Shown here: positions 28,355 through 37,520 of the stretch, piece after piece
Layout of the letters: each line of letters starts with the position of its first letter
Position numbering within the stretch: position 1 is the stretch's first letter
Assembly (NCBI GenBank): GCA_018693105.1
Contig: JABHLN010000025.1
Location: forward strand, 1 to 40,704
Length of the DNA: 40,704 bases
Source of the DNA: Desulfobacterales bacterium
GTDB taxonomy: Bacteria > Desulfobacterota > Desulfobacteria > Desulfobacterales > SURF-7
Direction: 5' to 3'
Translations under genes and position numbers: made by a program
The notes under the pieces: generated by a model
Seen by the model: the letters and a program-made list of their open reading frames with translations, nothing else
The model's database searches: none
What the model was told of the DNA's origin: nothing

Positions 28355-29179
28355 CTAATTCTTCTGCCCCTCCAAGTTATTTTTATTAATTTTTCTAACC
28401 GGCAGGATAAAAGCTCTCTCTTTTTTTCTCTGACGATGTATTTCTCCGGAATATAGTGAGACCGCATATGCATGAAGTTTTTTATCTGATATCCCTGTCC
28501 CTGTCCAATATGATGCATGAACAACAATATTTACAAAAGGATTTGGTTCAACAAGTGCAGGAAATTGCATTTCTGTATCAATTAAACTTTTCCATTGTTT
28601 TACAGTAGGAAGCTCCCAGTCTGTGTAACTTCCGTGCTTGAAATCCCTGCAGCTCCTAACAGCATCATTCCAGGTAACCGATGAAAAAAAGTCCAGTCTC
28701 CACCCGTTTTTTATCCACATAAGTTTTGTTGCATTATCTGTTATAGTCCCGTCTTTATTGTCTATGAATCGCTTTTTAGTATTATTTGCATATTGATTTT
28801 TTTGGCCTTTCTCTACTGCACGTTTTTTATTTATCTTAGAATTAAACACAACAGGATCATGAAACTCATATATACCACAATAACTTACCGCTCCTTCTAT
28901 TTTCAATTTATTCCATACTTTCATAGCCTTTTTCCGGTCATCGTATCTACCAAGATATACACGGTAAAACATTCCTTTACCTTGTACATCAGTCTTTTTC
29001 CAAAAAACTGTCTTCTCTTTTGTTTTCAAGGAGTTTGTATATTTGTTTGCATTTTGTAGAAGTTTAAATGATGCAAGATGGATACTATAGTGCGTTTCAT
29101 TTAATCTTTTAGCAAAGCAGTTTGTTAGAAAAAAAACAGCTGGGAAAAAAATAATTACTATTTTTAAAATATTTTTCAT
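28355..29179 (-). CDS. SPOR- and DUF1566-domain lipoprotein
   Basis: A 274-residue exported protein. Residues 1-21 are a lipoprotein signal (VFFLTNC). Residues 28-110 look like a SPOR domain (YSIHLASFKLLQNANKYTNSL ... YRVYLGRYDDRKKAMKVWNKL), a fold that binds denuded septal murein. Residues 138-265 are a DUF1566 domain (RFIDNKDGTITDNATKLMWIK, WELPTVKQWKSLID, YWTGTG, FILPVRK), a C-type-lectin-like fold. The same DUF1566 signature ends the caspase-like protein 3 kb away, which ties this gene to the signalling island. It is transcribed away from the cyclase-FHA gene. Function unknown; an envelope sensor or adaptor is inferred. Confidence 0.78.
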   Translation of the reverse strand: MKNILKIVIIFFPAVFFLTNCFAKRLNETHYSIHLASFKLLQNANKYTNSLKTKEKTVFWKKTDVQGKGMFYRVYLGRYDDRKKAMKVWNKLKIEGAVSYCGIYEFHDPVVFNSKINKKRAVEKGQKNQYANNTKKRFIDNKDGTITDNATKLMWIKNGWRLDFFSSVTWNDAVRSCRDFKHGSYTDWELPTVKQWKSLIDTEMQFPALVEPNPFVNIVVHASYWTGTGISDKKLHAYAVSLYSGEIHRQRKKERAFILPVRKINKNNLEGQKN

Positions 29180-29351: not shown

Positions 29352-30263
29352 ATGCCTAGAGAAACAGCTACAGTCGCAATCCTCTTTGCTGACATAGCAA
29401 AAAGTACTCAGATATATGAATCGCTGGGCAATAAAATCGCTCAAAATCTCATAGCGGTATGCCTGAGTCATCTCTCGAATGTTACTCTGAAACACAAAGG
29501 AACAATTATTAAAACCATTGGTGATGAGCTGATGTGTACGTTTCCCACTCCTTATGATGCAGTTGAAGCTGCAAAGGAAATGCATCAGACCCTTGAAGAA
29601 ATAGTAATTCCTGAAAAACCGGGTTATCCTCCACCAAATATCTATGTAGGCATTCAATACGGCAGAGTTGTCATGGAAAAAGGTGATGTTTTCGGTGATG
29701 CTGTAAACGTTGCCGCCCGAATGGTCTCATATGCAAAACAACGTCAGATCATAACAACTGATGAAACCATAAAAGCCTTGCCTCCCGGCCACGATACAAT
29801 GGTGCAATGCATCGATTCAACTAATATCAAAGGCAAATCAGGAAAAATCGATATTTATGAGATAATATGGGAACAGCATGACGTTACTGTTATGTTTGAT
29901 AGCCCTGATGATGATTCCATTAATCCTCTGAACATACAAACTCACCTTGAATTAGAATATCAGGGAAAAAATATTGTCGTAGACCAGAATAATCCCGCTG
30001 TCACACTTGGGCGACAGAACCACAATGATATTGTAGTTCAGGACAATCCGGTTTCCAGAACACATGCGCGAATCGAATACCGAAGAGGTAAATTTTCACT
30101 GATTGACCAGAGTTCAAACGGTTCCCACATCCTTATCCAGGGTAAAAAAAGCGTTACACTCAAACGTGACGAATACTCTCTTATCGGATACGGCGTCATT
30201 GGTCTTGGCCGCAAAGTAGACTCTGATTCTCCATTCGCAATAAGCTATAAAATCAAATTATAA
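29352..30263 (+). CDS. Class III adenylate cyclase fused to an FHA domain
   Basis: A 303-residue soluble protein. Residues 5-175 are a class III nucleotide cyclase domain with every catalytic position filled: metal-binding Asp14 (FADIAKST) and Asp58 (TIGDELM), purine-selecting Lys54 and Asp112, and transition-state Asn119 and Arg123 in FGDAVNVAARM. The Lys/Asp pair predicts ATP, hence cAMP. Residues 203-300 are an FHA domain with the phosphothreonine-binding residues in LGRQNHND (Arg221), PVSRTHARIEYR (Ser235, His238) and SSNGSHI (Asn256). The FHA domain should dock to a phosphorylated partner, and a Ser/Thr kinase lies 5 kb downstream. The ribosome binding site is AAGGGGAAG. Confidence 0.93.
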   Translation: MPRETATVAILFADIAKSTQIYESLGNKIAQNLIAVCLSHLSNVTLKHKGTIIKTIGDELMCTFPTPYDAVEAAKEMHQTLEEIVIPEKPGYPPPNIYVGIQYGRVVMEKGDVFGDAVNVAARMVSYAKQRQIITTDETIKALPPGHDTMVQCIDSTNIKGKSGKIDIYEIIWEQHDVTVMFDSPDDDSINPLNIQTHLELEYQGKNIVVDQNNPAVTLGRQNHNDIVVQDNPVSRTHARIEYRRGKFSLIDQSSNGSHILIQGKKSVTLKRDEYSLIGYGVIGLGRKVDSDSPFAISYKIKL

Positions 30264-30533: not shown

Positions 30534-31319
30534 TTAAACTCTGGAAATTACAACACTCACATTGTCATTTCCACCGGCATTATTTGCAGCATCAATGAGC
30601 TTTTGTGTTAGATTATTTACATCAGTTTCTTCGTTCATGATATTGATAATTTCGTCTTCAACAATCATATCATTAAGGCCATCACTGCACATGAAATATA
30701 AATCACCTTTCTTATATTCTTCCCATGCAATGTCAGGTACTGCTCCCTTGCTTGGACCAATAGCTCTTGTAATAACATTTTTCCCGGGCTTTTCACCTTT
30801 TTTCCCTTTAACTTCCCATTCGGAAAATGCGGAATGGTCAGAGGTCAGGCGCTGGAGCTTAGAATCTCTCCAACGATACAGCCTGCTGTCACCAACATGG
30901 AACCACAATATATATATACCAACAAAAACAACTCCGACTAAGGTGGTGCCCATATAACGCTCTAAATTTGCTTCCTTGTTACGCTTCTGGAGTTCTGCAT
31001 TTGCTTTGGATACAGCATCGTCAACCATAGAATAAAGACAATTAATTTCTGTAGGGATCCCTTCCACCTGCGTAGTATCCATAACCTTTTCGGACAATAT
31101 ATCCGGCTGGATATGCTGGGAAATAACTTCCAGAGCAGTTGAGCTTGCCTCTGATCCACGTTCATGCCCACCCATGCCATCTGCGAGTAGCAAACAAAAT
31201 CCGTCCTCATGCAGACTTATAGAATCCTCATTTTCAGATCGTACACGTCCGGGATCAGATATACCGCAGGCAGCAATACTTGAGGTCTCGACTTTAATAG
31301 TTTTTTTTTCTCTATCCAT
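30534..31319 (-). CDS. PP2C-type Ser/Thr protein phosphatase (first of two)
   Basis: A 261-residue cytoplasmic metal-dependent phosphatase. All metal and phosphate motifs are present: SENEDS, LLLADGMGGHERG, FHVGDSRLYRW, FMCSDGLNDMI and GGNDNVSVVISR. The track starts at a TTG; the ATG five codons later is preferred, although neither has a clear ribosome binding site. The gene converges on the cyclase-FHA gene and diverges from the caspase-like operon, with back-to-back promoters between. It should reverse phosphorylation by the membrane kinase of the island. Confidence 0.93.
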   Translation of the reverse strand: MDREKKTIKVETSSIAACGISDPGRVRSENEDSISLHEDGFCLLLADGMGGHERGSEASSTALEVISQHIQPDILSEKVMDTTQVEGIPTEINCLYSMVDDAVSKANAELQKRNKEANLERYMGTTLVGVVFVGIYILWFHVGDSRLYRWRDSKLQRLTSDHSAFSEWEVKGKKGEKPGKNVITRAIGPSKGAVPDIAWEEYKKGDLYFMCSDGLNDMIVEDEIINIMNEETDVNNLTQKLIDAANNAGGNDNVSVVISRV

Positions 31320-31359
31320 GTGTTTTGTCTGCAAAGAAAGTCAATAACGATAATTTTTT

Positions 31360-31558: not shown

Positions 31559-34240
31559 ATGCGTACTTCCGGAATAATAAAAGTCATATTATTTCTATTT
31601 TTCATAATTATCTGTGCTGGACTTGCCGGGGTAAATCTCCATGCATTACCCGGTAATAAAGTTTCAGGTGAAAATCACGCATTGATTATCGGGATAAACA
31701 ACTATGAAAACTGGTCAAAGCTAAAGAGTCCAGTCAAAGATGCAGAAGAAATTTCAAAAATACTTACCGGAAAATATAATTTCAAAAAATCTAATGTTGT
31801 CCTTCTTACTGACAATTCACATAAAAAACCTACTGAAAACAACATATTTGATAGTATAGAATCATTCTATAAAAAACTGACTCCGAACGACAATCTCCTT
31901 TTATTTTACTCTGGCCATAGCGCTGAAGATGACAAGGGTGATACATACTGGATTCCAATAGATGCAAAAAAAGACAGTAAAAGGACCTGGCTGAAGCACT
32001 CTGATCTGAGCGAAGATTTTTTCGCAGCAGAAAATTTCATGGCAAAAAACCTTTGCATTATTACAGATTCTCTTTTTTCCACATCAATAATCAAGAAGAA
32101 ATCTATTACTCTATCACCTTTTGATCTTCGCTACGAAGAAAAAATCAGTGAAAAGTCAACGCGCAGGTCAAGGGAAGTAATTTCTTTTGGCGACCAGCAC
32201 TGGGAGGGGGACGATAAATCAGGGGGCATAGGTCTTTTCACCCAATACATAAGCAATGCATTAAATGACAACTCACTTGATATTATAGATTTTGAAAACC
32301 TGATTTTTGATGAAGAAATTATTTTTCCTATACGAAGAATTGCCGGAACAAAAATGATAAGGGGCAGGTTAAGAAATAGTAAGGACAAAGGAGGTCAATT
32401 TGTCATTGCCAGAGTCGCACCAGCATCGATTGTTGATGTATTAAACCTTGCTGTCACCCCGAAGAAAGGTTACCAGGGCGACAAATTTACTTTTGAAATA
32501 AAAACCAGTGGTCCGGCAAGTGAAGTATTTATTGAGATCGGTGGCAGAAAACACGTCATGAAGGGTTCGGGTACAGACTGGAAATATGTTGCCATAATTG
32601 ACAACCTTGGAAATATACCGTTTTCCGGAATTGCAACAAACAGGAATAATGCTGAAGGAGAAAGTCTTAAGAACAGTTTAAGGACCATAAAAAAACTATC
32701 TGAATCTGTAAATGTAGCCAGTGCTGTTGTTAATCCGAAAAGCGGGTTAGGTGGTGACAAATATCGTTTTTCTGCAGTTACAAACAGTCCGGCAAAAAGT
32801 GTAAATCTGCTTATAGGAGTAAATGAATATAAAATGAGCGGTTCAGGGACGAAATGGTCTTTGGACAGAACAATTGAGGAAACCGGCTCTGTAGAATTTT
32901 CAATGATTGCATTAAATGCAGACGGTATAACCGGAGAACCCGGAACAGGAGTTCTAAAATTAAAGGCCGGCCCTGTAAATGTTGTAAATATTAAAACCAC
33001 TCCGAAAACTGCATATGCAGGAGAACGTTTCACAATAACAGCCACAACCGACCGCTATGCCAGATCCGCTTCTCTTAAAATAGACGGCAAATCATATAAA
33101 ATGAAAGGTTCCGGTAAAATCTGGAGCATAAAAACCCAAATACCTGATATTGGCAAAAAAGAATTTTCAGTCTTTCCGAAAAATATGGCAGGTATTACCG
33201 GTCTTGCAATGAGCAGTTCCATACTTACAAAGAAAAGTCCGCTGCCTGTTCCTAATGTTGCAAGAGCAGATGTAAGTATTGTAAGCCCTGGTAAAGGACA
33301 TGTCGGAGACAAGTTCATTTTTAAAGTAGAAACCAGCGTCCCTTCAAACAAGGTATTTGTTGACATTGAAGATGAAAGTTTTGCCATGAAAGGTTCGGGA
33401 ACAAGCTGGACCTATATTGCCAGTATAGACAAAGTTGGTCTCAATCAATACACGATATCAGCGAAAAACAAGGATGGTGTTCAGGGAGAGGCCATAGATG
33501 GAAGCATAACAACAACAAAAAGACCTTCAAGACCTGTTAATGTCCTGCTGGCAGAAGTAAGCCCGAAAAAAGGTCCGAAAGGAAAAAGTTTTACTTTTAC
33601 AGCCAATACTGACTTTCCCGCAAAAAACGTATCACTTATCATAGATAAAAACCACTATCCAATGAAAGGTTCGGGAAAAATTTGGACAATTGCAAAAAAA
33701 CTTAACAAATCAGGTAAAATTAATTTTTCAATTGTTGCAAGCAATAAAGATAATGTAAAAGGAGGAATTCAAAAAGCCTCTGTTAAAGTATATAGTAAAA
33801 GATATAAATATAATAAAGACGGAACAGTTACTGACCAGACAACTGGTGAAAAACGAGATCGATTTCTTGATAATGGTGATGGAACAATATCAGATCTTGC
33901 AACCAGCAGAATGTGGTTAAAAGAGCCTAAACCCGGCCCTGTAACATGGGAAGACAGTGTTGAATATTGCAAAAGTCTTTCAATTAAAGGCTATTCCGGA
34001 TGGAGACTTCCTACTATCAAGGAGTTAAAAACTCTTGTCGACAAGAAACGGCAGAATCCCGCCCTGCCGGCCGGACATCCCTTTTCAAATGTTCAATCCC
34101 TTATTTACTGGTCAAAAACAAAAAAACTCGGCCCACAGTATTCTGCTGTAATAAGTATGTGGACAGGAAAGACCGGACACCAGAAAAAAAAGGAAACGGC
34201 AATTGCCTGGCCCATCAGGTATGTTGATCTAACAGAATAA
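31559..34240 (+). CDS. Exported caspase-fold (C14) pseudo-peptidase with five beta-sandwich repeats and DUF1566
   Basis: An 893-residue protein. An N-terminal signal or anchor helix (8-30) precedes a caspase-like domain (38-260): ALIIGINNYENWSKLKSPVKDA, LLLFYSGHSAEDDKGDTYWIP with the catalytic His120. The usual catalytic block DxCFSG reads DSLFST at 170-175, so the nucleophile Cys is Leu172 and peptidase activity is unlikely. Residues 285-750 hold five tandem repeats of about 92 residues sharing a GDKFTF-type strand, MKGSGxxW and a closing AxNxxGxxG, probably Ig-like sandwiches. Residues 755-890 are a DUF1566 domain (RFLDNGDGTISDLATSRMWLK, WRLPTIKELKTLVDKK). It heads an operon with PP2C (11 bp later) and a Ser/Thr kinase. 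An envelope scaffold or sensor role is inferred. Confidence 0.85.
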   Translation: MRTSGIIKVILFLFFIIICAGLAGVNLHALPGNKVSGENHALIIGINNYENWSKLKSPVKDAEEISKILTGKYNFKKSNVVLLTDNSHKKPTENNIFDSIESFYKKLTPNDNLLLFYSGHSAEDDKGDTYWIPIDAKKDSKRTWLKHSDLSEDFFAAENFMAKNLCIITDSLFSTSIIKKKSITLSPFDLRYEEKISEKSTRRSREVISFGDQHWEGDDKSGGIGLFTQYISNALNDNSLDIIDFENLIFDEEIIFPIRRIAGTKMIRGRLRNSKDKGGQFVIARVAPASIVDVLNLAVTPKKGYQGDKFTFEIKTSGPASEVFIEIGGRKHVMKGSGTDWKYVAIIDNLGNIPFSGIATNRNNAEGESLKNSLRTIKKLSESVNVASAVVNPKSGLGGDKYRFSAVTNSPAKSVNLLIGVNEYKMSGSGTKWSLDRTIEETGSVEFSMIALNADGITGEPGTGVLKLKAGPVNVVNIKTTPKTAYAGERFTITATTDRYARSASLKIDGKSYKMKGSGKIWSIKTQIPDIGKKEFSVFPKNMAGITGLAMSSSILTKKSPLPVPNVARADVSIVSPGKGHVGDKFIFKVETSVPSNKVFVDIEDESFAMKGSGTSWTYIASIDKVGLNQYTISAKNKDGVQGEAIDGSITTTKRPSRPVNVLLAEVSPKKGPKGKSFTFTANTDFPAKNVSLIIDKNHYPMKGSGKIWTIAKKLNKSGKINFSIVASNKDNVKGGIQKASVKVYSKRYKYNKDGTVTDQTTGEKRDRFLDNGDGTISDLATSRMWLKEPKPGPVTWEDSVEYCKSLSIKGYSGWRLPTIKELKTLVDKKRQNPALPAGHPFSNVQSLIYWSKTKKLGPQYSAVISMWTGKTGHQKKKETAIAWPIRYVDLTE
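32426..33800 (+). repeat. Five in-frame repeats of about 275 bp in the caspase-like gene
   Basis: Each encodes a unit of roughly 92 residues with a central MKGSG-x-x-W (MKGSGTDW, MSGSGTKW, MKGSGKIW, MKGSGTSW, MKGSGKIW). The units differ clearly at the DNA level, so the array is old. Confidence 0.85.
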
Positions 34241-34251
34241 CAGGATTTAAT

Positions 34252-35040
34252 ATGGATTGTACTATAGCTAGCGCATCAGACAAAGGATTACGAAAAGAAG
34301 AAAATCAGGACTATCTTTCATATTATGATGGACCTACTCATAAAAACGGGCTTCTCCTTGTCCTTGCTGACGGAATCGGGGGCCGATCTGGAGGCGGAAC
34401 AGCTTCAAAAATTGCTGTAGAAACTTTAATGGAATATTTCTACAGCAAGAAAAATATCAACATCCCGGTAGTTATAAAAAAAGGATTCAAGGAAGCAAAC
34501 AGGGTTGTTGTTGAAAAAGGCGACCAGGATATTAGCTTGAATGGAATGGGATGCACAATGAACGCGGTAGTGCTTAGAGATGACAAAATGTATCATAATA
34601 ATGTCGGTGACAGCCGCGGATATATCATATCCGGCGATGAAATAAGCCAGTTCTCGACAGACCATTCTTTTGTTTCCGACCTTGTAAAGGCAGGAGCAAT
34701 TACCGAAGAAGATGCACTTACACATCCGGAAAGACATGTCCTTACTAAAGCCATAGGTATAGACCCTAAATTACCGATAGAGACAAATAAAGAATATCTT
34801 CAAATAGAAAACAGTCAATATATTTTACTATGCTGCGACGGTCTTTATGGAGTTGTCCCTGATGAGGAAATACTTGATACGGTAAATACATTAAAATCAC
34901 CTGATGACATTTGTAAAAAACTTATTGAAAAAGCAAACGAAAACGGAGGGCCTGATAATATCTCGCTAATCGTCGTTAGAATAAATAATATAGGACTTGT
35001 TTCCAACTTAAAAAATAAATTTAAAGCTCTTATGAGGTAA
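34252..35040 (+). CDS. PP2C-type Ser/Thr protein phosphatase (second of two)
   Basis: A 262-residue cytoplasmic phosphatase with intact metal site: EENQDYLSYYDG, LVLADGIGGRSGGG, NNVGDSRGYI, LCCDGLYGVV and GGPDNISLIVVR. It differs in detail from the first PP2C of the island and is not a recent duplicate. It lies between the caspase-like gene (11 bp upstream) and the kinase (6 bp downstream). The kinase ribosome binding site (GAGG) overlaps its last codons, so the three genes are one transcript. It should oppose the neighbouring kinase directly. Confidence 0.94.
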   Translation: MDCTIASASDKGLRKEENQDYLSYYDGPTHKNGLLLVLADGIGGRSGGGTASKIAVETLMEYFYSKKNINIPVVIKKGFKEANRVVVEKGDQDISLNGMGCTMNAVVLRDDKMYHNNVGDSRGYIISGDEISQFSTDHSFVSDLVKAGAITEEDALTHPERHVLTKAIGIDPKLPIETNKEYLQIENSQYILLCCDGLYGVVPDEEILDTVNTLKSPDDICKKLIEKANENGGPDNISLIVVRINNIGLVSNLKNKFKALMR

Positions 35041-35046
35041 TATTTA

Positions 35047-36900
35047 ATGATAGGCGAACAATTAGGTGATTATCTAATCACCAAGTCACTTGGAAAAGGC
35101 GGTTTCGGAAGTGTCTGGGAAGCAAAATCAGAAACTGATGAAACGGTTGCCTTGAAGATTCTTAACCCCCAGGTACTTGAAAATGAAAAAGTTGTCAGGA
35201 AATTCTTTCATGAAGCTATGATTCTTGCAAAACTTGATCATCCGCATATATGTAAGCTTCTTGAGTTCTTTCCGGACGGCGGTAATTATGCAATTGTAAT
35301 GGAATATGTCCCCGGCATAGAATTAAAAGACCTTTTAAAGCAAAAAGGCAAACTGCCGATTCCACAAGCATTTGGTCTTGCAAAACAGACGCTTAAAGCA
35401 TTCCAATATGCTCATGAAAACGGAATACTCCACAGGGATATAAAACCCGCCAATATTATGATCTCAAACGAAGGCATGACTAAAATCATGGACTTCGGTA
35501 TTGCAAAAATGTCATCAACCGCTTCCCACGACACTGCAGCGAGCATGCTTTCAGTCCACTACGTACCTCCCGAGAGATTTGACAAAAGCAGTGAGATTGA
35601 CACAAGATCGGATATTTATTCTCTTGCCCTTGTGTTCTATGAAATGTTTACAGGACGTAGACCTTTTACAGCAACTGAAACATCCCAGATAATGTTCAGT
35701 CATCTCAACGAAATACCCGAGTCTCCTATTAATTTAGCACCTGAAATTCCTCCCCAGATAAGCGATGCCATATCAAAAGCTCTTGAAAAGTCCCCGGATG
35801 ACCGCTTTAACGATTTTCAGGAATTCAGCGATGCAATGGGTACTTTAGATGATGAAGACTTTGATGACGAAACATGTATAATGGATGATGATCTGACGCA
35901 AATCTTTGAAGAAGCCAAGCTCGCCGAAGATCTCCCGGAAACAGTCATAACAGAAGATGAACTCGAAGAGGAAATTGAAGGCAAAAAAAAGGGAAAATTC
36001 CTGCTCATTGCCTCGATTCTTATATCGCTTACTATTGCAGGTGTAGTAGGGGGGTATTTTACCTTATATAAATCCTCTTCAGGTATATCGGATCAGGAGC
36101 CGACTACAATTGTTGAAAAAGCCCAAACAAATTCCAAGGGGTTTGAGGATGTTATACATCCAGGTGATGGAAGCACCATGATCTTGATCCCTGCCAGTGA
36201 GTTTATGATGGGCTCTGAAGATTATGAAGCCGAAAAACCAGTTCAGAAAATAATGTTAAGCAATTATTATATTGATAAATACCTGGTTACCAATGCCCAG
36301 TTTTCAAAATTTGTAGAACAGACCGGCTATGTTACCGATGCTGAAAAAGAAGAATCCGGTATGGTAAGAATTGGTCGCCGCTGGAAAAAACTTCCCGAAG
36401 CTAATTGGAAAACACCTGATGGACTGGCTTCGATTGATGATAAAGACAATTATCCTGTTTCCCAGATTTCATATAATGACGCGTTAAGTTACTGCAAATG
36501 GGCTAGAAAAGATCTGCCTACTGAAGCTCAATGGGAAAAAGTTGCCAGAGGCCCGGAAGGCAACCTGTACCCATGGGGAAATACTGATCCAAACGAGACT
36601 ACGGCAAATTTTGATAATGTAATAGAATCTGTTTCAGCTGTTGATTCTTATGAAAAAGGCCAGAGCTTCTATGGCGCTTTTGATATGGCAGGAAATGTTT
36701 ATCAGTGGTGCAAAGACTGGTATGAAACTGGAGAAAGAACAACTAAAGATCCAACAGGCCCTGAAACAGGGACTGAACATGTTGTAAAGGGTGGCTCTTT
36801 CTCAGAAGGCATGGAAAGCATACGTTCATCTAACCGCGACAGATATGAGCCCAATTACAGTATGTTTATCTTCGGTTTCAGATGTGCATGTGAATATTAA
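35047..36900 (+). CDS. Transmembrane Ser/Thr protein kinase with extracytoplasmic FGE-sulfatase-like domain
   Basis: A 617-residue receptor-type kinase. The kinase domain (8-265) is complete: LGKGGFGSVWEAK, Lys38, Glu56, LHRDIKPANIM (Asp131), MDFGIAK (Asp149), VPPERF. An acidic linker (268-312) contains three threonines in similar settings, DETCIM, DLTQIF and PETVIT, possible autophosphorylation sites for an FHA partner. A transmembrane helix spans about 318-341. Residues 378-617 are an FGE-sulfatase (SUMF1-like, C-lectin fold) domain with MILIPASEFMMGS, LPTEAQWEKVARG, GAFDMAGNVYQWCKDWY and GGSF...FGFRCA. The cysteines used for formylglycine formation are not at the expected GGSF...R positions, so it probably binds a ligand. 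Last gene of the operon. Confidence 0.94.
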   Translation: MIGEQLGDYLITKSLGKGGFGSVWEAKSETDETVALKILNPQVLENEKVVRKFFHEAMILAKLDHPHICKLLEFFPDGGNYAIVMEYVPGIELKDLLKQKGKLPIPQAFGLAKQTLKAFQYAHENGILHRDIKPANIMISNEGMTKIMDFGIAKMSSTASHDTAASMLSVHYVPPERFDKSSEIDTRSDIYSLALVFYEMFTGRRPFTATETSQIMFSHLNEIPESPINLAPEIPPQISDAISKALEKSPDDRFNDFQEFSDAMGTLDDEDFDDETCIMDDDLTQIFEEAKLAEDLPETVITEDELEEEIEGKKKGKFLLIASILISLTIAGVVGGYFTLYKSSSGISDQEPTTIVEKAQTNSKGFEDVIHPGDGSTMILIPASEFMMGSEDYEAEKPVQKIMLSNYYIDKYLVTNAQFSKFVEQTGYVTDAEKEESGMVRIGRRWKKLPEANWKTPDGLASIDDKDNYPVSQISYNDALSYCKWARKDLPTEAQWEKVARGPEGNLYPWGNTDPNETTANFDNVIESVSAVDSYEKGQSFYGAFDMAGNVYQWCKDWYETGERTTKDPTGPETGTEHVVKGGSFSEGMESIRSSNRDRYEPNYSMFIFGFRCACEY

Positions 36901-36989: not shown

Positions 36990-37520
36990 TTATTTTTTAT
37001 TAAGAGCTTTCAGGACAATATCTGTAATATCTACACTTGGATCAAGGTATCCTATTGTATTAGGGTCTTTAAGAATAATAGTAAATTTGTTATCCTTTGC
37101 AGCACGTTTTAAAACATTGTCCGCTTTCTTCAGAATTATGGATACAAGTTCCCTGTCTTCTCTTGTTATATCTTCTTTTGCATCGGCAACAAGCCTCTGG
37201 TATTCTTTATATTTTCTTTTTAAGGCCTCAACCTTAACATTTTTTTCTTCAGGCTTCATCTTTGGCCCATTCTTATTAATGAAGTCTTTTAACTGATTGA
37301 TTTCTTTTATTTTGATTGCAACGACAGTTTCTTTTTCCTTACGAATTTTTAAAATATCTTTCCTGGCTTCCTTGCCGAGATTTGATTCATTAACAAGCCT
37401 TTGAAGATTTATATATCCTACCTTGGCCTTGTCAGCTGCATAAGCGACATAAGATGTTAGACATAAAGCGGTTCCCAAAACGATACAGCACACAATTAAA
37501 ATTATGCTTTTACCTTTCAT
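36990..37520 (-). CDS. OmpH/Skp-family periplasmic chaperone-like protein
   Basis: A 176-residue exported protein. The signal peptide (1-28) ends SYVAYA, then the mature start KAKVGYINLQRLVNESNLGKEA matches the Skp beta-strand and first helix. Two long charged helices (about 50-135) form the coiled-coil arms that hold unfolded outer-membrane proteins in Skp, and the chain returns to strands KFTIILKDPNTIGYLDPSVDIT. A strong GGAGT-type ribosome binding site precedes the ATG. It is not beside bamA or lpxD as the standard skp gene often is, so it may be a paralogue. Confidence 0.87.
   Translation of the reverse strand: MKGKSIILIVCCIVLGTALCLTSYVAYAADKAKVGYINLQRLVNESNLGKEARKDILKIRKEKETVVAIKIKEINQLKDFINKNGPKMKPEEKNVKVEALKRKYKEYQRLVADAKEDITREDRELVSIILKKADNVLKRAAKDNKFTIILKDPNTIGYLDPSVDITDIVLKALNKK

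Follow-up and report, generated by a model that had tools for sequence, protein, structure and literature searches.

A Desulfobacterales caspase-fold protein lacking the catalytic cysteine is encoded next to a transmembrane Ser/Thr kinase

Gene organization of the pseudo-caspase locus

The window, i.e., the whole 40,704-nucleotide stretch of Desulfobacterales contig JABHLN010000025.1 analyzed here, carries on its forward strand an open reading frame for an 893-aa protein (31559..34240), supported by Pfam matches and by orthologues that are 50-53% identical to it from end to end. We refer to its product as the pseudo-caspase. The coordinates in the initial annotation (31559-32340) covered only the first ~260 aa of a frame that runs to 34240.

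All the features of the protein are encoded on the forward strand. Residues 1-30 (31559..31648) read as a hydrophobic N-terminal export signal, and every aligned orthologue also has a hydrophobic N-terminus; the protein is thus probably exported, as initially proposed. A C14 (caspase-fold) domain follows at residues ~38-285 (31670..32413), as supported by Pfam, AlphaFold2 and Foldseek. Next, sequence, alignment and model concur on five Ig-like beta-sandwich repeats of ~90 aa (32429..33763), each of them with the motif MxGSGxxW. In the full-length model of the 893-aa protein, these repeats are all-beta with a local pLDDT mostly of 80-90; the overall confidence of this model is low (pTM 0.32), and it was used for the Ig repeats only. 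At the C-terminus, residues 775-887 (33881..34219) constitute an Lcl_C domain (PF07603, 79 bits).

Based on Pfam matches, the conserved neighbors upstream are an exported SPOR + Lcl_C protein (28355..29179, reverse strand), a nucleotide cyclase with a C-terminal FHA domain (29352..30263, forward strand) and the PP2C phosphatase PP2C-a (30534..31334, reverse strand), which is divergent from the pseudo-caspase gene in the window. The Lcl_C domain type is common to the SPOR protein and the pseudo-caspase. Just 3′ of the pseudo-caspase gene lies a second phosphatase, PP2C-b (34252..35040, forward strand), followed by a Ser/Thr kinase with one predicted transmembrane segment and a C-terminal FGE-like domain (35047..36900, forward strand). 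The locus is bordered by the gene of an OmpH/Skp-like periplasmic protein (36990..37520, reverse strand), also a conserved neighbor. From SPOR-Lcl_C through cyclase-FHA, PP2C-a, pseudo-caspase, PP2C-b and kinase to OmpH, the gene order is conserved, with the upstream part sometimes reoriented. The pseudo-caspase, PP2C-b and kinase genes follow one another in 15 loci including the window, and in the four loci of one distant family, which lack PP2C-b and Lcl_C, the pseudo-caspase gene still precedes the kinase gene. The kinase/phosphatase neighborhood that had been pointed out in the window is, therefore, a property of the clade.

An anti-phage caspase system, which would comprise an active caspase with defence partners, was considered for this locus and rejected. 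The PADLOC 'caspase' match is partial (87 aa), the protein lacks the Cys, the conserved locus stands amid housekeeping genes, and what PADLOC matched in the kinase and the cyclase are generic domains.

Caspase fold and placement of the catalytic positions

The Pfam Peptidase_C14 profile (PF00656) matches residues 40-141 with 54.6 bits, above its gathering cut-off of 21.4, and AlphaFold2 predicts a caspase fold for the domain with high confidence (pLDDT 91.1, pTM 0.91); on both grounds, the protein belongs to the C14 family. The best Foldseek matches of the domain model were the MALT1 paracaspase (E 4e-12) and the yeast metacaspase Yca1.

Sequence and alignment place the catalytic-histidine position at His120 in FYSGHS (31916..31918, codon CAT, forward strand), and the nucleophile position at Leu172 (32072..32074, codon CTT, forward strand) in the block TDSLFST, where D170-S-L172-F-S-T stands for DxCxSG. 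When aligned with 40 related C14 domains with intact dyads, His120 was opposite His and Leu172 opposite Cys in every case. The initial annotation, in which the SGH histidine was kept and the nucleophile Cys read as Leu172, is upheld by this alignment. The structure prediction that it had suggested as a check agrees: two predicted beta strands, spanning residues 112-118 and 164-169, end just before His120 and Asp170-Ser-Leu172, respectively, as in C14 enzymes. The His-Cys dyad of active orthocaspases and caspases is, hence, incomplete in this protein. CTT and the nearest Cys codon differ at two bases, and Leu172 is thus not accounted for by a sequencing error in one base; additionally, Cys is missing from this position in 24 other sequences.

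Drift at the nucleophile site in a single clade

Searches over relatives, class, order, phylum and named genomes yielded 25 distinct pseudo-caspase sequences, including that of the window. Those with named records come from Desulfobacterales or Deltaproteobacteria MAGs, Olavius symbionts among them. A tree was computed after masking of both catalytic columns, and all 25 sequences formed one clade with 100/100 support. Outside this clade, the related sequences in the tree keep both His and Cys, except for one tandem copy in genome G019, with Arg at the nucleophile position. This copy belongs to an array of five C14 genes (L040:2749-11675), in a genome with 24 C14 matches.

Among the 25 pseudo-caspases, position 172 is occupied by Pro (10 sequences), Leu (5), Val (3), Met (3) and Phe, His, Ala or Tyr (1 each). 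Neither Cys, Ser nor Thr occurs there in any of the 25, while Cys is present in 40/40 of the intact-dyad relatives. Conservation of Leu among orthologues, which had been put forward as a check, was not observed; Pro is the most common residue, ~12 residue changes are needed at this position on the tree, and in a 20-sequence alignment it ranks 10th in variability among the 249 positions of the domain, with the flanking Asp170 and Phe173 invariant. The histidine position has also changed, being His in 14, Gln in 7 and Arg in 4 of the 25 sequences. The resulting pairs at the two dyad positions are HL in the window, and HP, HV, QP, QM, RP and others in the relatives. One or both dyad residues of a C14 p20-like domain are, therefore, replaced, which is what defines a pseudo-orthocaspase.

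Two other cysteines were considered as substitute nucleophiles and rejected. Cys166 lies inside a strand and is Cys in only 11/25 sequences, while Cys151, the only other recurrent one, is Cys in only 10/25. Across the 25 aligned relatives, no cysteine is conserved anywhere in the C14 domain, and the possibility raised in the initial annotation that Cys166 or another Cys could serve as the nucleophile fails on this point. It might still be argued that the protein is a peptidase using a relocated nucleophile or a metal, as His120 is kept in 14 of the sequences and residue 171 is Ser or Thr in 24/25. Nevertheless, Ser171 is also present in 35/40 intact-dyad relatives, so it is inherited rather than new, and with no conserved Cys and the His lost in 11/25 sequences, we find this explanation very improbable. 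The loss of the catalytic cysteine in the ancestor of the clade is the best explanation of these data, and, judging from the aligned residues, the loss of catalysis appears near certain.

Conservation of the acidic pocket and selection on the domain

Asp61 (31739..31741, forward strand) is an S1-pocket residue of the TbMC2 Asp95 type; the profile alignment of SPVKD with GCIND of Yca1 sets it opposite the Asp of the metacaspase motif GCxND, and such alignments to PDB profiles cover the His half of the domain only. The other S1-pocket residue, Asp170 (32066..32068, forward strand), was located by alignment two residues before the nucleophile position. Position 61 is acidic (D/E) in 24/25 pseudo-caspases, and Asp170 is present in all 25 of them and in 40/40 intact-dyad sequences. 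In Trypanosoma brucei MC2, Asp95 and Asp211 coordinate basic substrate residues (PMC6426788); as far as the alignments indicate, Asp61 and Asp170 correspond to them. The clade thus retains the acidic S1-pocket residues, which are likewise kept in cyanobacterial pseudo-orthocaspases (PMC6426788).

Of all parts of the protein, the C14 domain is conserved best, with 55-64% identity to the window sequence vs 45-53% for the Ig repeats. In close pairs, dN/dS ranges from 0.05 to 0.38, and the C14 domain is under purifying selection. These values, well under 1, argue against gene decay and against a faulty assembly, as do the open frames, which are long in nearly all relatives, and the motif conserved around site 172 in many independent assemblies. 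A sign of decay was seen in a single relative, the G019 orthologue (L038:6955-9730), which has a frameshift within the Ig repeats, as well as Gln for the His and His for the Cys; we regard decay or misassembly as a negligible explanation for the clade.

The conservation of the domain also bears on the main rival interpretation, according to which the protein is a surface adhesin or envelope scaffold that binds an extracellular target through its dead caspase head, Ig stalk and Lcl_C tip, as an output of the kinase/phosphatase locus and not as its sensor. Lcl_C is named for the Legionella collagen-like surface protein, there is a weak NCBIfam match, far under its cut-off, to the surface adhesin Lsa25, the same locus encodes a second exported Lcl_C protein, and the protein length varies among relatives, with frames of ~840 to 1,380 aa. 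However, an adhesin role by itself accounts neither for the C14 domain being conserved above all other parts nor for the position of the gene immediately before that of the kinase in distant relatives without Lcl_C. We consider this interpretation possible but doubtful.

Association with the kinase

The kinase has intact VAxK, HRD and DFG motifs, and the phosphatase motifs are also intact. By contrast, the outer FGE-like domain of the kinase (36160-36897) has lost the catalytic Cys pair (GGSxxC....C) that characterizes a formylglycine-generating enzyme, the window sequence being GGSFSEGMES. These cysteines are absent from all the aligned kinase orthologues, also when judged against FGE structures. 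The pseudo-caspase locus thus contains a second dead enzyme.

An orthologue of the kinase was found in 17/19 genomes with the pseudo-caspase, and the pseudo-caspase in 17/18 genomes with the kinase (Fisher ~2e-26, a value that ignores shared ancestry and derives from counts in two slightly different genome draws). Three exceptions were identified. In G204, the contig ends after PP2C-b and the kinase was not found elsewhere in the genome. In G121 (L142:6356-11020), the cyclase, PP2C-a, PP2C-b and kinase genes are contiguous and the pseudo-caspase is naturally absent; since this kinase locus is otherwise intact, the kinase can persist alone. In G049 (L143:5183-8719), the gene after that of the most divergent pseudo-caspase encodes not the Ser/Thr kinase but a hybrid histidine kinase, composed of HAMP, PAS, HisKA, HATPase, receiver and Hpt domains; this is the one genome in which a histidine-kinase partner is known. 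The G049 locus also has a response regulator and adjoins a fliM-like gene.

The genomic distribution is also informative about whether the protein acts on active caspases of its own cell, as their decoy or regulator, in the way that cFLIP does on caspase-8. Two other C14 proteins with intact dyads are encoded in the genome of the window, which would fit such a role. Nevertheless, in seven genomes, six of which are at least 91% complete, no C14 protein other than the pseudo-caspase was found, which makes a decoy role unlikely. Nor does the gene have active C14 genes in its vicinity, and those active relatives that were examined occupy other loci. Overall, we give the decoy explanation little credence.

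Comparison with known systems

Pseudo-orthocaspases account for 858 of 9,994 orthocaspases, and 90% of them are alphaproteobacterial or cyanobacterial (Klemencic et al. 2019, PMC6426788). The clade described here resembles them in its C14 p20-like domain with replaced dyad residue(s) and retained acidic S1 residues, and in that some genomes have the pseudo form only (PMC6426788). The reported pairs are typically YS, YN, YA, FS, HA or QC (PMC6426788), whereas the Desulfobacterales clade has HL, HP, HV, QP, QM or RP pairs with a freely varying nucleophile site; it also differs from the reported proteins in its Ig + Lcl_C architecture and its kinase locus. Pseudo-orthocaspases are, thus, already known, but the Desulfobacterales clade and its setting appear new; no report of either the clade or the locus was found in the literature searched, in which subscription papers were incompletely covered.

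As in the MALT1 paracaspase (caspase-Ig3), the caspase fold is followed by Ig-like sequence, here five repeats. However, MALT1 has protease activity and carries a death domain at its N-terminus, while the window protein is probably exported and, with its Cys replaced, lacks the active His-Cys dyad of paracaspases. Clostridioides difficile CspC is likewise a pseudoprotease thought to sense a signal rather than to cut (PMC6636752), although it has a different protease fold and acts in spore germination, so the likeness is an analogy only. The kinase, in turn, shares with PknB/Stk1-type kinases a cytoplasmic kinase domain, one transmembrane segment, an extracytoplasmic sensor domain and a PP2C partner. 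Nevertheless, its outer domain is FGE-like and not PASTA, and its NCBIfam PASTA-kinase score of 286 bits is below the cut-off of 450.

Proposed role of the pseudo-caspase

Because the Cys is gone in all 25 sequences and the gene is almost always beside a kinase gene, the fold probably now serves in sensing or binding and not in protein cutting. The binding or scaffold role suggested in the initial annotation would be consistent with the retained pocket, the purifying selection and the kinase linkage. We place at about even the chances that the non-catalytic C14 fold is an extracytoplasmic ligand-binding partner of the neighboring membrane kinase.

In this model, the protein would be a secreted pseudo-protease whose C14 domain was retained as a non-cutting domain after the Cys loss and is borne by an Ig-like stalk of five repeats, which ends in an Lcl_C tip. 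As the acidic S1 pocket is kept, the domain probably still grips a peptide or protein via a basic side chain. Ligand binding would take place outside the cytoplasmic membrane, in partnership with the transmembrane Ser/Thr kinase and its non-catalytic FGE-like outer domain, and the kinase would relay the signal to cytoplasmic targets. The PP2C phosphatases would oppose the kinase, and the cyclase-FHA protein would read its output. We infer the location outside the membrane, the peptide binding, the kinase contact and the direction of signaling; the pseudo-caspase could also be encoded in one operon with the kinase and yet make no contact with it.

Taken one step further, and with somewhat less than even confidence, the locus may encode a receptor built from two dead enzymes, in which a secreted caspase fold, after a single loss of catalysis, became the extracytoplasmic ligand-binding part of a Ser/Thr kinase with a dead formylglycine-generating sensor, and in which the partner can be swapped for a histidine kinase.

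For a dead caspase fold in bacteria, the locus provides a specific partner and a function that can be tested, in a clade where the Cys is never present, its site drifts freely, the pocket is maintained and the gene stays tied to that of a membrane kinase. It would thereby provide a parallel to the non-catalytic signaling by caspase-like proteins in animals.
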